From assembly GCA_013314755.1 (NCBI GenBank), contig JABUFA010000002.1, positions 124,001-188,000 on the forward strand: 64,000 nucleotides of DNA, in the 5' to 3' direction. The notes beneath the pieces are model-generated. The model saw only the letters and a list, made by a program, of their open reading frames with translations. It was not told the DNA's origin and did not search any database. Shown here piece by piece: positions 12,214-20,826 of this stretch (position 1 is its first letter; each line of letters starts with the position of its first letter). The position numbers and the translations under genes were made by a program. This stretch comes from Chthonomonadia bacterium (GTDB lineage: Bacteria; Armatimonadota; HRBIN16).

Positions 12214-12230
12214 GGAAGCTTACAGCTTCC
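12214..12230. terminator. Short hairpin between convergent secA and the DUF4380-like gene
   Basis: GGAAGCT-TAC-AGCTTCC forms a 7-bp stem followed on the + strand by TCAAAAAA. It overlaps the stop codon of the minus-strand gene. It could act in both directions, but there is no real U tract for the secA transcript. Confidence 0.35.
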
Positions 12231-13185
12231 TCAAAAAATCAGCCAGCGCTTCGGGTGATTGCTCCTGTGGGGGAATGCGGTACAGCTCCCAGATTACCTC
12301 CAGGGAGACGCTTTCCCCCTTACTGAGCACCTTTAAGGGCGAGGTGAACTCCAGCTCGATGTACGGTAACTCGTCCGAGTTGGAGAATATCTGAGCATGG
12401 TCGCCCGGCTTGTAGGCGGACAGCCCCTCTGCAACCAGCGGTGACTTCTGCACCACCAGATACGGCGCACGAAACCATGCCAGTATCTCCGCATCACAGC
12501 CCAACTTGACCGCCACGTCGGAACGTCTCTCGGGAATCAGAATATCCTCGCCCAGCCGACGGACGCTTTTCCACGGGTCTGGACTGAACAGCTTGTAACC
12601 ATCGGGCAGTGTCGAGCCTGGGTGCAGGCGCACCAGAAGCGTATCGGGCGCGGGTAGCTGCGAGACCGTCCAGGCAGACACCGGGAAGTCTGCACCGCCG
12701 CGCAGCTTCTCCAAACGGGTCAGCGTGTGCACGCGGGTTCCCGTCGGCTCCAGCCAGACCTCCCGCACGATTCGCACCCCATATCCTGCCACCACAGGCG
12801 AAACCATCCGAATCCTGTTGCCCTGCACTATCTCTACCTGATGAGGCACCTGGTCGGTCGCAGAGGGAGGCGGCCACCCCCTGCCGATGCGCAGGGGCCA
12901 TTCATCCTGAGGCCAAACCCATGCCTTATCCCCACCGTGATTGGGCCACTCGCCCGGCTTGACCGGCTTGCCCTCTGTGGCAGGGTTCACCCACAGAACG
13001 TTCGGCTCACCCACGAAACTGTAGTGCATGATACGCGCGATGGACGGGACGACCACCACTTCCACCGTGCCGTTCGTGATACGGTAGCACCCTTGCCAGC
13101 CCCGGTAGGAGACCTGCTGGACCACCTGGGCGCCCGCTGATGTCCACAACAAACCAATACCCAAAAGCAGAACAATTCGCCTCAT
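12220..13185 (-). CDS. Secreted DUF4380-like (mutarotase-fold) protein
   Basis: The protein has 321 residues from the ATG at 13185, chosen because AAGGAG lies about 7 nt upstream; ATG 13191 would sit too close to that site. Residues 1-21 are a signal peptide (MRRIVLLLGIGLLWTSAGAQ). The rest is beta-rich: ITNGTVEVVVVPSIARIMHY, a Trp/Pro-rich stretch near VWPQDEWPLRIGRGWPPP and EYELEF-type strands near the end. That pattern matches the DUF4380/aldose-epimerase-like super-sandwich, a fold that binds sugars. No catalytic His/Glu set could be assigned. It probably acts outside the cytoplasm on a carbohydrate (inference). It is divergent from the collagen-like gene and appears to be transcribed alone. 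Confidence 0.6.
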   Translation of the reverse strand: MRRIVLLLGIGLLWTSAGAQVVQQVSYRGWQGCYRITNGTVEVVVVPSIARIMHYSFVGEPNVLWVNPATEGKPVKPGEWPNHGGDKAWVWPQDEWPLRIGRGWPPPSATDQVPHQVEIVQGNRIRMVSPVVAGYGVRIVREVWLEPTGTRVHTLTRLEKLRGGADFPVSAWTVSQLPAPDTLLVRLHPGSTLPDGYKLFSPDPWKSVRRLGEDILIPERRSDVAVKLGCDAEILAWFRAPYLVVQKSPLVAEGLSAYKPGDHAQIFSNSDELPYIELEFTSPLKVLSKGESVSLEVIWELYRIPPQEQSPEALADFLRKL

Positions 13186-13287
13186 ATGCATTCTCCTTCC
13201 GAACACACCTTTTCTCTATTCCCCCAGTATCAGGCGATTCCTGCCATTGATGCAATCTCGTATATCCCGTTACCTTTGCCCCGCCAG

Positions 13288-13429: not shown

Positions 13430-14443
13430 ATGAGGAACATGGCAGGCTTGCTCCGGACAAGCGGGGTAGCAGGTGTCGCGGTTGCGGTTTGCTTGCTTGG
13501 GCTGATGAGCCCGGCTTACGCCGTCGAGCGCCAGTTTCTGGGCATCCGCATGTTGTCCAAAGTGCAGACCGTTCTGTCCCGGTTCGGCAACCCCACCCAG
13601 GTCACGGTCGGGCAGGTAGCGTATAACCTGCCGGGAGCGCAGGCGGGTATGGCTGGCATGGCAGGTGTGCCCGGACGCGCTGGACTGGCGGGTGCACCCG
13701 GTGTGCCCGGAGTGCCAGGAATTCCCAGCTACGCGGGAACCGGACCGACACCCGGAATGCCCACCTACGGATACGGTGGGATGCCTCCGATGGCTGGGGT
13801 CGGTGCCGCCACCGGAATGGGCGGGATGATGACCGGTCCCCGAATGGGCGGCATGGTCGGTGGAGGCATGGGCCGCTTTGGCGGTGGTGGAAGGCTTGAA
13901 GAAGAAGAAGGCATGGCAATGATGGGTGGACCGATGATGGGCGCTCCCACGTCAGGTGCACCCGGTTTACCCGGTTTGCCCGGTGGCATTGGTGCACCGG
14001 CACGCCCCGGTATGCCTTCCATGCCCGGTACTCCTGCGATGCCCGGTATGCCCGGAATGGCTGGGCTGGGTGGAGCACCGTCGGGACTCGGACTGCCTTC
14101 CATCGGCTTGCGCACCACGCCGGGGGGCATGATGTATGAACAGGAGACCACCCTGATATACGAGCGACCGGGTGGCGTTATCTACGAGTTCCTGGTGAAC
14201 AAAGACGGCTATGTCGTACAGGCGAAAGCCATCGGCTACGAGGATAAATCCGGGCTGGCACGCACATCGCGCGGTATCAAGCTGGGCGACACCTACCAGA
14301 AAGTGGTCGCCGCATACGGCTGGCCCAAAGAGCACCAGAACATGGGAGCTACCCTGTACATCCGGTATCCCGACCACCATGTGGGCTTCCAGCTGTACGA
14401 CAACAAGGTGGTTTCTATCATCGTCGCCGCGATGGAGGAATAA
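13430..14443 (+). CDS. Secreted Gly/Pro/Met-rich collagen-like protein
   Basis: The ATG at 13430 follows GGGAGGAAACCAG, giving 337 residues. Residues 1-30 form a signal peptide (hydrophobic VAVAVCLLGLMSPAYA). A short conserved-looking block (QFLGIRMLSKVQTVLSRFG) follows. About 170 residues of low complexity then carry GxPG, GMPGMPG and GMGG repeats, with one acidic patch (EEEEG). A compact C-terminal domain of about 95 residues is last (YEQETTLIYERPGGVIYEFL ... KLGDTYQKVVAAYGWP). The terminal blocks read like one small SmpA/BamE-like fold interrupted by the repeat region (inference: LGI..V...FG and LGDTY..V...YGWP look like two copies of one motif). Function is unknown; a surface or structural role is plausible. 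No partner gene is coupled to it. Confidence 0.85.
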   Translation: MRNMAGLLRTSGVAGVAVAVCLLGLMSPAYAVERQFLGIRMLSKVQTVLSRFGNPTQVTVGQVAYNLPGAQAGMAGMAGVPGRAGLAGAPGVPGVPGIPSYAGTGPTPGMPTYGYGGMPPMAGVGAATGMGGMMTGPRMGGMVGGGMGRFGGGGRLEEEEGMAMMGGPMMGAPTSGAPGLPGLPGGIGAPARPGMPSMPGTPAMPGMPGMAGLGGAPSGLGLPSIGLRTTPGGMMYEQETTLIYERPGGVIYEFLVNKDGYVVQAKAIGYEDKSGLARTSRGIKLGDTYQKVVAAYGWPKEHQNMGATLYIRYPDHHVGFQLYDNKVVSIIVAAMEE

Positions 14444-14503
14444 GGGGTAACCGTTCGGATACCCAGCAGGCAGGAGCCAGCCTGATGATGGAGGAAGGTG
14501 TCT

Positions 14504-16312
14504 GTGGCATCACGCGCCAGTGCAGACCTGGACGAGATCCGTGCGCGCAGCGACATCGTGGAAGTGGTCTCGCAGTACGTGGCGCTGAAGCGAACGGGCA
14601 AAAACTTCAAAGGATTGTGTCCGTTCCATGCCGAGAAGACACCTTCCTTTACCGTTAACCCGTCTCTGCAACGCTGGCGTTGCTTCGGATGCGGACAGTA
14701 TGGTGACGTGTTTGATTTCATCATGCGCATCGAAAACGTCACCTTCCTCGAAGCAGCCAGAATGCTTGCCGAACGGTTAGGGCTGGAGTTTCGAACCGCA
14801 GGAACGGCGTCTACGCAGGAGCAAAAAGACCGTCGCGAACAGATACTGCAGGTTAATCAGCTCGCCGCGCAGTTCTTCCGGGATATGCTGAAGCGCTATC
14901 CCCTCCCCCAGCGCATCCTGCAACAGCGGGGAGTGCTTCCTCAAACACAAGAGCGATTCGGCATCGGATATGCCCCTCCCGAATGGTCAACGCTGACCAA
15001 CCTTCTGCGGGCGAAGAAAGTGCCTTTGACCGTTGCGGCAGAAGCCGGGCTGGTTGTGATGGGCGACAACGGCGAGTACTACGACCGCTTCCGCGACCGC
15101 CTGATGTTCCCCATCTGGGACCGGCAGGGGCGCGTGGTCGCTTTCGGGGGACGCGCTCTGGGCGATGCCCAGCCCAAATATCTCAACAGCCCCGAAACCC
15201 CCGTCTTTCGCAAAAGCCGCACCATCTACGCCCTGCACCTCGCCAAAGAGCGCATGATGACCGAACGCACCGCACTGCTTCTGGAGGGATACATGGACGT
15301 GGTGGCGGCGCATCAGGCGGGCTTTACCCACGCCATTGCCACCATGGGCACCGCTCTCACCGAGGAACAGATAGCCATCCTCTCGCGACTGGTATCGCGC
15401 GTGATTGTCGTGTACGATTCCGACAGCGCAGGCGTGGAGGCGGCGAAACGGGCGGCGGAAATCCTGCGCCAGCACGAAATAGAAACGCTGATAGCCCGCC
15501 TGCCCGACGGTGAAGACCCCGACAGTCTCCTGCGCCGGCTTGGTGCTTCCGCGTTGGAAGAGTGCCTGAACAAAGCCGAACCGCTTACAGCATTTCTGAT
15601 TAACGACCTCTACCGACGATACGATGCAAACACCGTGGAAGGCAGGATCAAGATACTGAAATCATCCATTCCCATACTGGCGGGGATACCTTCCGGTATC
15701 GAACGAGATCGCTATATCAGCCAGCTGGCGCCGCTTCACCCCGCATATTTTACAAATCCCAGTAAACCTGAGGAGCTGATTCGGCGGGAAGTGGAACGAT
15801 TCTTGCGTTATAAAGAGTCGGAAAAGAAAAAGGAGCCATCGCAGGCGGAAGAACCCCCGGTTGTGGAGATAGACGAGCAGCTTCCGCCGGCGGTGGTACG
15901 AGCGGAAAGCACATTACTTCGGGGTATACTATCTGACGAGTGGAGATCGCTGGTACTGCAAATTGCCCAGGCTGGCGATATGGTTTCAGAGGCTGGAAAG
16001 CAGTTTTTCGAGCTGGTCAGGCGTGCGTGGGACGCGGGCATGGAACTGCATCTTCCGTCGCTTCTTTCTGCACTGAGCAACCCGCGCCTGCGAGAGGCGG
16101 TGTCGACAAGGCTATTGCTGGAAGAGCCGCTGAGTGAGCAGGTTCTGCGTGACTCGGCGTCTTTCCTTCAGCGGTGGCACAAACGCACGCGGCAGGTACA
16201 GATTTCAGCACAACTGGCGCAGGATTTCTCGCCCGATAGCGTGAACTATCAAGAATATCAGAGGCTCATAAACGAGTTGCACTCCGATGCCCGGCACAAC
16301 CGAAAGGAGTGA
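14504..16312 (+). CDS. dnaG: DNA primase DnaG
   Basis: DnaG synthesises RNA primers at the replication fork. The GTG at 14504 is preferred over GTG 14498 because GGAGGAAG then has normal spacing; this gives 602 residues. The N-terminal zinc ribbon is C39-P-F-H42 with C60-F-G-C63. The catalytic core has the [13 protein letters not shown] Toprim acid and [17 protein letters not shown] helicase-binding-type C-terminal helical region follows (about 440-602). It is followed after only a few bases by rpoD, the classic macromolecular-synthesis operon order in which primase and the main sigma factor share a transcript. Confidence 0.97.
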
Positions 16313-16320
16313 AACAAGGC

Positions 16321-17433
16321 ATGGAGATGGACAATAACGATAGCGCACAGATGCACCGGCTTTTCCAGCAAGGCAAAGACAGAGGCTACATCACCTCTGA
16401 CGAGCTGAGCGATGCCCTCTCGGAGATGGATATCGACACCGACGAACTGGAACAGATGCTGGAGTTCTTTGACATGCAGGGTATCCAGGTAGTCGGCTCC
16501 GTCAAAGGGATGCCACTGCTTGAGGACGGCTACCCCTCGGACATCTCCGCCAAAGAGTACGAAATCGCCGACCAAGAAATCGCGCAGCTGGAAGGTGCTC
16601 CCTTAGACGACTCGGTGCGCATGTGGCTTCGCGAAATCGGCAAAACTCCCCTGCTCAGCCAGGCAGAGGAACAGCGCCTCGCCGAGCTGGTAGCCCAGGG
16701 CGACGAGGAAGCCAAACGCAAACTGATTCTCGCTAACCTTCGCCTCGTGGTCTCAATTGCCAAACGCTACAGCGGACGCGGAATGCCCTTCTCCGACCTC
16801 ATTCAGGAAGGCAACCTGGGGCTTATCCGCGCTGTGGAGAAGTTTGACCATCGCCGCGGATACAAGTTCAGCACCTACGCCACGTGGTGGATCCGGCAGG
16901 CGATTACCCGTGCCATCGCAGACCAGGCACGCACCATCCGCATCCCGGTGCACATGGTGGAAACCATCAACCGCCTGATGAAGCGGCGCAGCCAACTCGA
17001 GCAGGAGCTGGGGCGCTCCCCCACCCCCGAAGAGCTGGCTGAGGACCTGGGCATGTCGGTGGACAAAGTCTGTGAGATTATTCGAATCGCGCCAGAACCC
17101 CTGTCGCTGGATACCCCGGTGGGAGAGGAAGAGGATACCCAGCTGCTGGACTTCATTGAAGATGATTCCTGTGATTCCCCAGCCGACGCTGCAGACCGAA
17201 GCCTGCTGAGAGAACGTATTGAGGAAGCCCTCCGTGTGCTCACCGACCGCGAGCGCGAGGTCATCAAGATGCGCTTTGGACTGATCGACGGAATGCCACA
17301 CACGCTGGAAGAGGTCGGCAGGCATTTCAACGTAACGCGCGAACGCATCCGCCAGATAGAAGCCAAAGCCATCAAAAAACTGCGCAACCGCCATAACTGC
17401 AAGAGGCTGCGCGACTACTCCACCGGTTTGTAG
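16321..17433 (+). CDS. rpoD: Primary sigma factor RpoD (sigma-70 / SigA type)
   Basis: The protein has 370 residues from ATG 16321, with AAGGAG about 11 nt upstream; an in-frame GTG at 16309 overlaps that site and is rejected. It has a short region 1.1-like acidic start ([20 protein letters not shown]), region 1.2 ([17 protein letters not shown]), region 2 with [19 protein letters not shown] and [17 protein letters not shown] for -10 recognition and melting, region 3, and region 4 ([22 protein letters not shown]) for -35 recognition. It lacks the long non-conserved region of proteobacterial sigma-70, as in Gram-positive-like SigA. The consensus -35/-10 promoters seen in this window fit this factor. 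Confidence 0.97.
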
Positions 17434-19849: not shown

Positions 19850-20826
19850 TATTCCAACTCCTGTTCCAGCGCGCCGTCCAGCACTACCGTCACGCCCATC
19901 TCTCGCGCTGACTGATGGGCATTGGGGTCGATACCCTCGCCAGCAACTACGGGTACAGCAAGCAGTCCCGCCTTACTCAACGTCTGCGCGCGGCGCGCCG
20001 CCCGCTGAACATCCTTCATCCCAACGCCCCATGACGCTTCTACCACAAGATAGACCTCCTGTCCATCGTCGCGGCGTCGCCCACGCACGATAACGTCCGC
20101 TTGCAGTAAGTCAGCCACCTCATGTGGCGTCAGTGTGCCCTGCTCCTCCAGGTCATCCAGCATCGCGCTGATTTCTTCAGGTGGCAGTGCCCGAATCCGC
20201 TTCAGAAGCTTGCTGAAATAGGCATGAGCGCGGGTAAAGTACTTCTGCTCGTGGTAGAACTTCTTCAGCTGGGCAATGTCATCCGCCATCCTTTGCTGGC
20301 TCATCGCCAGTTTCTGTACATTGGCGGTCAGTTCGTCCACCCGTTGGGTTAAATCACTCACCAGCTGCGTTAATTCGTCTACCCGAGCGGTCAACTGGTC
20401 TACCCGCAGGGTCAGTTCGTCCATCCGTCGGGTTAAATCAATTACCAGCTGCGTTAATTCGTCTACCCGAGCGGTCAACTGGTCTACCCGCAGGGTCAGC
20501 TGCTCTAGCTTCTGGGCGAGCTGATCTACTCGCTCCGTGAGCTGGTTAAGTCGCAGAGCGAGATCGTCTATCCGAAGGGTCAGTTGTTCTACGCGCTGGG
20601 TCAGCTGTGAGAGATGAACGGCCTGCTGGCGCACCTCCTGGGTGAGTTCGCGCACCAGTTCAGGCAAGGTGAGCAGCTCCTCGCTGAGCAACATGCGCCG
20701 AAGCTCGACACGCCACTCGGGATGCTGTTGCAGCAGGTCCAGTAGGTCACGAAAATCTCGCAGTGTGAAAGCCATCTCCAGTACCTCATCAACACTGTGC
20801 GTCTCTATTTTACCACTTTTGTCCAC
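19849..20826 (-). CDS. Heptad-repeat coiled-coil protein with PD-(D/E)XK-like C-terminus
   Basis: The 325-residue frame starts at a GTG (20826) with a weak ribosome site; the start is uncertain and a later ATG is possible. Residues about 60-185 are an almost pure heptad array (LTLRVDQLTARVDELTQLV and variants) predicted to form a long coiled coil. Residues about 190-230 link to a C-terminal domain with ADVIVRGRRRDDGQEVYLVVEAS followed by KDVQRAARRAQ. Its Asp and Glu plus downstream helix look like a degenerate PD-(D/E)XK nuclease core, as in DUF3782-like proteins. The coiled coil is encoded by near-identical 69-nt repeats 84 nt apart. Function is unknown; it has no cotranscribed partner. Confidence 0.75.
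   Translation of the reverse strand: MDKSGKIETHSVDEVLEMAFTLRDFRDLLDLLQQHPEWRVELRRMLLSEELLTLPELVRELTQEVRQQAVHLSQLTQRVEQLTLRIDDLALRLNQLTERVDQLAQKLEQLTLRVDQLTARVDELTQLVIDLTRRMDELTLRVDQLTARVDELTQLVSDLTQRVDELTANVQKLAMSQQRMADDIAQLKKFYHEQKYFTRAHAYFSKLLKRIRALPPEEISAMLDDLEEQGTLTPHEVADLLQADVIVRGRRRDDGQEVYLVVEASWGVGMKDVQRAARRAQTLSKAGLLAVPVVAGEGIDPNAHQSAREMGVTVVLDGALEQELE
20346..20498 (-). repeat. Internal 84-nt-period repeat in the coiled-coil gene
   Basis: A block of about 69 nt at 20346-20414 recurs at 20430-20498 with one or two differences. The 84-nt shift equals 28 residues, exactly four heptads, so copy-number change would keep both frame and coiled-coil register. Confidence 0.85.

Follow-up and report, generated by a model that had tools for sequence, protein, structure and literature searches.

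The gene at positions 13430..14443 of the window, as we call the whole 64,000-nucleotide stretch of DNA analyzed here, lies on the forward strand and encodes a 337-residue protein. Our best explanation, held with middling confidence, is that this is a Sec-exported, probably non-enzymatic cell-envelope protein in which a tandem BamE/BLIP-like unit carries a looped-out disordered spacer. The function that we infer as most likely is that of an adaptor in the envelope whose disordered loop serves as a spacer. The unexpected part of the finding is the gene neighborhood, and among the results it is the operon position of the gene that most deserves a specialist's attention. Almost all of the genomes examined from this little-studied phylum contain a member of the family, which offers a way into the study of their envelope.

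The reading frame begins with an ATG at 13430, and its stop codon ends at 14443. These are exactly the coordinates of the original prediction, which had described a collagen-like repeat separating two matching motifs of a small secreted domain, and both of the motifs that it quoted are present. The description of the coding sequence as a two-repeat BamE/BLIP-like, apparently exported protein with a low-complexity linker draws on the reading frame itself, on its relatives, and on structure models. Read by eye rather than by a predictor, the N-terminus (MRNMAGLLRTSGVAGVAVAVCLLGLMSPAYA-VERQ) looks like a Sec signal peptide bearing a type I site (residues 1-31, 13430..13522 (+), with cleavage at AYA|VE), and the model places a helix at residues 11-24. 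Inspection of the signal peptides of some genus members (L004, L008) revealed lipobox-like I-T-A-C or V-V-A-C sequences; this Cys is absent in L007 and is replaced by Ser in one genus member. A lipoprotein form of the protein would still be conceivable. Alignment and modeling define an N motif at residues 32-62 (13523..13615 (+)), which supplies a helix (45-52) and a strand (57-60) of repeat 1. The motif is followed by the disordered Gly/Pro/Met/Ala-rich linker at residues 63-236 (13616..14137 (+)), delimited by the model and by composition. The other three strands of repeat 1 occupy residues 237-272 (14138..14245 (+)) in the model, and repeat 2 covers residues 278-337 (14261..14440 (+)) with a helix at 289-296 and four strands, as assigned by the model and by hhalign.

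When the two flanks were joined across the linker, the resulting first half aligned with the second at an hhalign probability of 93.7 (E 3e-8), compared with 1.6 for the best of 40 column-permuted controls. The matching motifs are thus part of an internal duplication, and a profile of the C domain also detects the N motif in 88 of 98 family proteins. An AlphaFold monomer run on the full window protein gave a mean pLDDT of 65 and a pTM of 0.48, with 10-residue block means of 85-97 over residues 31-60, 92-97 over residues 241-330, and 36-55 over residues 61-240. A natural short-linker homologue of 208 residues from another genus yielded a mean pLDDT of 82 and a pTM of 0.68 with the same elements as the window model, and in both models the linker exits between strands 1 and 2 of repeat 1. 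The expectation that the terminal blocks fold together was borne out by prediction, with confidently ordered ends and a disordered insert, and the models and the hhalign result support the idea of one folded unit split by an insertion.

Structure comparison of the short homologue placed YjgB of Bacillus subtilis (DUF4309; 4ygt) closest, with a Z score of 12.0, an rmsd of 3.7, and 120 aligned residues covering both repeats; the overall fold is alike, but sequence identity is 13%. The CAP-associated N-terminal domains 4ifa and 4h0a gave Z scores of 10.9 and 10.4 over 119 and 121 residues. These domains sit in SCP/CAP proteins, whereas the window protein lacks a match to an SCP domain. YfeY of Escherichia coli (DUF1131; 2qzb) scored 10.5 over 123 residues. 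Single repeats resemble OsmE (4dm5), BamE (7txx and 5wam), and BLIP (2g2w) with Z scores of 6.3-7.0, a range that the tool calls common, and BamE and OsmE each have one repeat, in contrast to the two in the window family. Foldseek matches for the short homologue were weak (best E 3e-3); for the window model, 4ygt ranked at the top with an E value of 1.8e-4. Computation therefore shows two homologous half-domains, each a helix plus four strands, that are predicted to form one tandem BamE/BLIP-like unit. This assignment is made at the level of the superfamily, from the models, the Z scores of 10.4-12.0 against four entries, and the internal homology.

The window protein itself matched no Pfam family at E<=1 and no NCBIfam family. 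At the same Pfam threshold, 35 members of its family touched 10 families, all weakly: DUF2845 in six members (best E 0.00037; the one member shown scored 19.1 bits, where the cut-off is 21), CAP_assoc_N in four (best E 0.015), DUF3862 in three, DUF4309 (PF14172) in two (best E 0.02), DUF1131 in two (best E 0.06), and five others in one member each. The five named families we take to belong to one superfamily with each other and with the window family. Given the matches in two of 35 members and the absence of a match in the window protein at E<=1, we do not assign it to DUF4309. Nor is it assigned to BamE (PF04355), a model that matched nothing at the locus at E<=10 and whose single match in the same genome at that threshold lies elsewhere (contig C50, E 0.7). 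Searches by sequence for a relative among solved structures found none that was convincing, and the matches from profile searches were of low complexity or at the level of chance; the strongest, at E 0.0075, was to a fibril protein aligned in linker columns. A mobile origin of the gene was rejected, as its C-terminal 100 residues gave no tblastn match in plasmids or phages at E<=0.01. Among the matches listed, no title or abstract opening pointed to literature on this gene, and no paper was found that pairs Armatimonadetes with a collagen-like repeat or that joins any two of DUF4309, YjgB, beta-lactamase inhibitor protein, and BamE.

In the main, the repeat is a disordered linker that evolves fast. 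Its length had been given as about 170 residues, which is correct: the 174 residues include 54 Gly, 27 Pro, 23 Met, and 20 Ala, 10 charged residues, and neither Cys nor His. An acidic cluster, EEEE, is encoded at 13898..13909 (+). The longest unbroken Gly-X-X run comprises nine triplets (residues 73-99, 13646..13726 (+)), a length reached by 17 of 10000 shuffles, and the spacing between Gly residues peaks at 3 and 6 residues. At the DNA level, TRF reported solely an 18-bp unit in 2.6 copies at 14006..14052 (+). Among nine genus members the linker ranges from 162 to 186 residues with an identity of 0.79, and the N motif and C domain are constant in length with mean identities of 0.96 and 0.94; dN/dS is about 0.12 for the linker and 0.03 for the domains, values that are rough because dS is near 1 (near saturation) and the ratio is undefined in seven of 36 pairs for the N motif and one of 36 for the linker. 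This ratio and the use of all four Gly codons in the linker mark it as protein-coding sequence rather than a DNA microsatellite. Length variation among the nine is confined to the linker and one residue of the signal peptide. By these comparisons of sequence, the linker is under constraint, though weaker than that on the domains, and it absorbs nearly all length change. Two antisense reading frames of 158 and 128 residues overlie it (13602-14151 (-)), the second of which appears Pro/Gly-rich and scores higher with the collagen model than does the coding strand; both are probably shadows of the repeat.

The host genome is a 3.9-Mb draft, and its lineage, HRBIN16, is placed in Armatimonadota or Armatimonadales in the excerpted texts of two reports (PMC11071339, PMC9671151). 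A search with the single sequence matched the protein in 45 of 61 genomes, counting its own, and a family profile matched 201 of 205 phylum genomes that are at least 90% complete, a figure in which weak matches may be compositional since the profile contains linker columns. From the listed matches we took 84 regions in 84 genomes and 79 genera (six from the window genus and one from each of 78 others), out of 121 genera with a profile match; seven further chosen genera were left out. The C-terminal domain is present in all 84 regions by selection, as the regions were picked from matches. They hold 99 family proteins, 98 of them measurable once L130, whose gene is cut by the contig start, is set aside. 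All 98 carry a linker of about 34-195 residues (median 107.5), its ends being approximate because they were extrapolated from profile matches, and homologues of variable repeat length, as sought in the original prediction, thus exist. The average linker contains 33% Gly, 15% Pro, and 9% Met; Gly reaches at least 20% in 87 of 98, and Met ranges from 0 to 23%, with at least 10% in 44 linkers and at most 1% in 12. The two 34-residue linkers, both found in second copies, contain 6 and 9% Gly, and the N motif of these copies scores weakly. On a quick tree of the 98 proteins (98 rows, 138 columns, 41 of 95 inner branches open), the Met-rich state changed at least 18 times. Nature thus provides a linker series, from about 34 to 195 residues and from 0 to 23% Met, at one insertion point in one fold, which makes the role of disordered linkers in exported bacterial proteins directly testable.

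Stretches of this kind recur in the same genome, where the GMPGM codon pattern occurs at seven sites and its reversed control at none. A homology search of the genome with the linker returned solely the self-match at E<=1e-4, and the C74 pattern site lies in no reading frame of at least 100 residues that contains GMPGM. A further match is a lone GMPGM in a reading frame that appears ApbE-like by eye. Three other reading frames, found with the pattern and by inspection of the frames, carry long Gly/Pro/Met stretches: L163:1361-2971 (-), about 3 kb past the window end on the same contig, L165:1007-2194 (-), and L167:255-1541 (+). One of the three, of 537 residues, has a signal-peptide-like start and no Pfam match; another has a PKD domain and a signal-peptide-like start; and a third combines a stretch resembling a membrane helix with a CdsD_C match below threshold, the starts and the helix having been judged by eye. 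Because similar stretches occur in these three proteins, the Gly/Pro/Met linker seems to be a recurring feature of exported proteins in this organism.

That the collagen-like repeat could form a fiber had been suggested at the outset, but a collagen-like fiber is not favored as the main reading. With a cut-off of 27.2 bits, the Pfam collagen model (PF01391) reaches 17.2 on the coding strand (E 0.017) and 22.7 on the opposite strand of the linker stretch; the higher opposite-strand score points to composition. Collagen is not among the 10 Pfam families matched by the 35 members at E<=1. Gly-X-X runs exceed shuffles (p<0.05, 300 shuffles each) in all six other genus members. Outside the genus, 12 of 92 proteins have such runs, against about five that chance would give. 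As for the repeat in orthologues, a linker is present in all 98 measurable proteins, but long strict Gly-X-Y runs occur in the window genus and few others. Like bacterial collagen-like proteins, the linker of the window genus has Gly at every third place over a stretch; in the excerpted text of PMC8968730, prokaryotic collagens require this spacing, and the examples Scl1 and Scl2 have 50 and 79 triplets. The window linker, by contrast, has its nine triplets in the loop of a folded domain, and neither its score nor its longest uninterrupted array places it among collagen-like proteins. That the linker of the window genus nevertheless forms a short triple helix that trimerizes the protein into a stalk is very unlikely. 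The nine unbroken triplets, the 9-13 found in six other genus members, and the periodic Gly spacing speak for it, but the collagen scores, the rarity of such runs in other genera, the far longer Scl arrays, and the anchoring of both linker ends in one folded domain (in the monomer AlphaFold model) argue against it. Equally improbable is the proposal that a soft metal, for instance copper(I), is bound by the Met residues of the linker. The Met content of the window linker and of the 44 Met-rich linkers is compatible with it, but Met metal binding, which had also been suggested at the outset, is not conserved, given the 12 linkers nearly devoid of Met, and the window linker offers no Cys or His. 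Neither a conserved collagen nor a conserved Met metal site is supported; within the window genus alone, either may apply, with low probability.

The linker might instead lack a function of its own: an envelope protein common to the phylum would simply tolerate, in a surface loop, low-complexity sequence that is prone to slippage. We consider this a minor though real possibility. Its length, Met content, and motifs vary widely among genera, the Met-rich state has changed repeatedly on a tree in which many forks are unresolved, and similar stretches occur in unrelated proteins of the genome. Against this, all 98 measurable linkers are at least about 34 residues long, dN/dS within the genus is well below one, and the acidic cluster is kept at the same linker place in all nine aligned genus members (by eye). 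Least probable of all, a mildly hydrophobic flexible linker could form a loop that holds unfolded proteins after export in the manner of a holdase, for which the GGM tail of GroEL is an analogue; composition alone favors this, whereas the neighborhood gives no pointer to it and Met and hydrophobic content are not conserved. In the envelope-adaptor reading that we prefer, the folded unit would bind an envelope partner, either protein or polysaccharide. The linker would be a spacer, flexible and with little charge, that persists and keeps its overall character while its exact sequence and length drift, and the location before dnaG (and before rpoD in the regions checked for it) would couple expression to growth. 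Several observations run counter to this preferred reading: a linker dN/dS of 0.12 reflects more constraint than a free spacer needs, the window genus lacks the deacetylase neighbor described below, ten regions with at least 1.3 kb of downstream sequence lack an adjoining dnaG, the Foldseek E values of the short homologue are weak, and some genus members have the lipobox-like sequences noted above.

In the window, the gene order is secA (+), a divergently read gene at 12220-13206 (-), the family gene, dnaG, and rpoD. The divergently read gene has a weak DUF4380 match (E 0.001, below cut-off). With its first possible start taken, dnaG (14498..16312 (+)) begins 54 bp past the stop of the family gene, and rpoD (16309..17433 (+)) overlaps the end of dnaG by 4 bp. 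A pattern scan found no promoter-like sites (1.6 expected) and two terminator-like sites (3.5 expected), none of them between the family gene and dnaG. A same-strand dnaG lies downstream in 70 of 84 regions, or 65 of 79 when the five extra genus members are set aside, and these counts, like those for the deacetylase below, are lower bounds because several regions start or end near the gene. Four of the 14 regions without dnaG end less than 1 kb from the gene, and the rest are the ten mentioned above. Extrapolation from tblastn starts puts the median gap between the family gene and dnaG at 16.5 bp; 57 of 70 gaps are at most 100 bp, and two are 500 and 1016 bp. Both dnaG and rpoD are present in 16 of 19 longer regions and neither in three (L069, L074, and L085, the last of which ends 1.3 kb past the family gene). 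In L075 the family gene was missed by the single-sequence search and found by the profile.

A same-strand neighborhood with dnaG followed by rpoD makes this a putative macromolecular synthesis operon. The upstream gene differs: it is a member of this family here, but rpsU in E. coli (rpsU-dnaG-rpoD) and yqxD in place of rpsU in B. subtilis, according to the excerpted text of PMC2824700. The rpsU gene of the draft genome is on another contig. Upstream of the family gene on the same strand, tblastn found a polysaccharide deacetylase in 24 of 84 regions, 16 of which also have dnaG, and this neighbor points to a role in polysaccharide or wall assembly. Six of ten scanned upstream genes proved to be polysaccharide deacetylases, a proportion that is not a rate since the ten were chosen partly for recurring length. 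These six, all on the strand of the family gene, are L069:3950-5767, L073:4868-6928, L075:4411-6162, L076:7471-9228, L081:3874-5730, and L083:7549-9387, and the three in L069, L075, and L076 also have TPR matches. A deacetylase neighbor was not seen in the window genus, including its six other members, and a search of the window's own genome gave partial, deacetylase-domain matches only, located elsewhere.

It is possible, though we think it unlikely, that in this phylum an exported envelope protein rather than a ribosomal protein leads the dnaG-rpoD operon and ties wall or exopolysaccharide assembly to the machinery that starts replication and transcription, with the linker tuned by lineage to the envelope that it spans. 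If so, the deacetylase upstream in many genera would belong to that assembly. Two further observations concern the surroundings of the gene. In several genera of family f7 (L069, L092, L095, L102, and L118), tandem copies of the family gene occur with a deacetylase and no adjoining dnaG. Farther along the window, at 20326-20499, there is a tandem repeat with a period of 84/42/21 bp, comprising 2.1 copies of the 84-bp unit at 95%.
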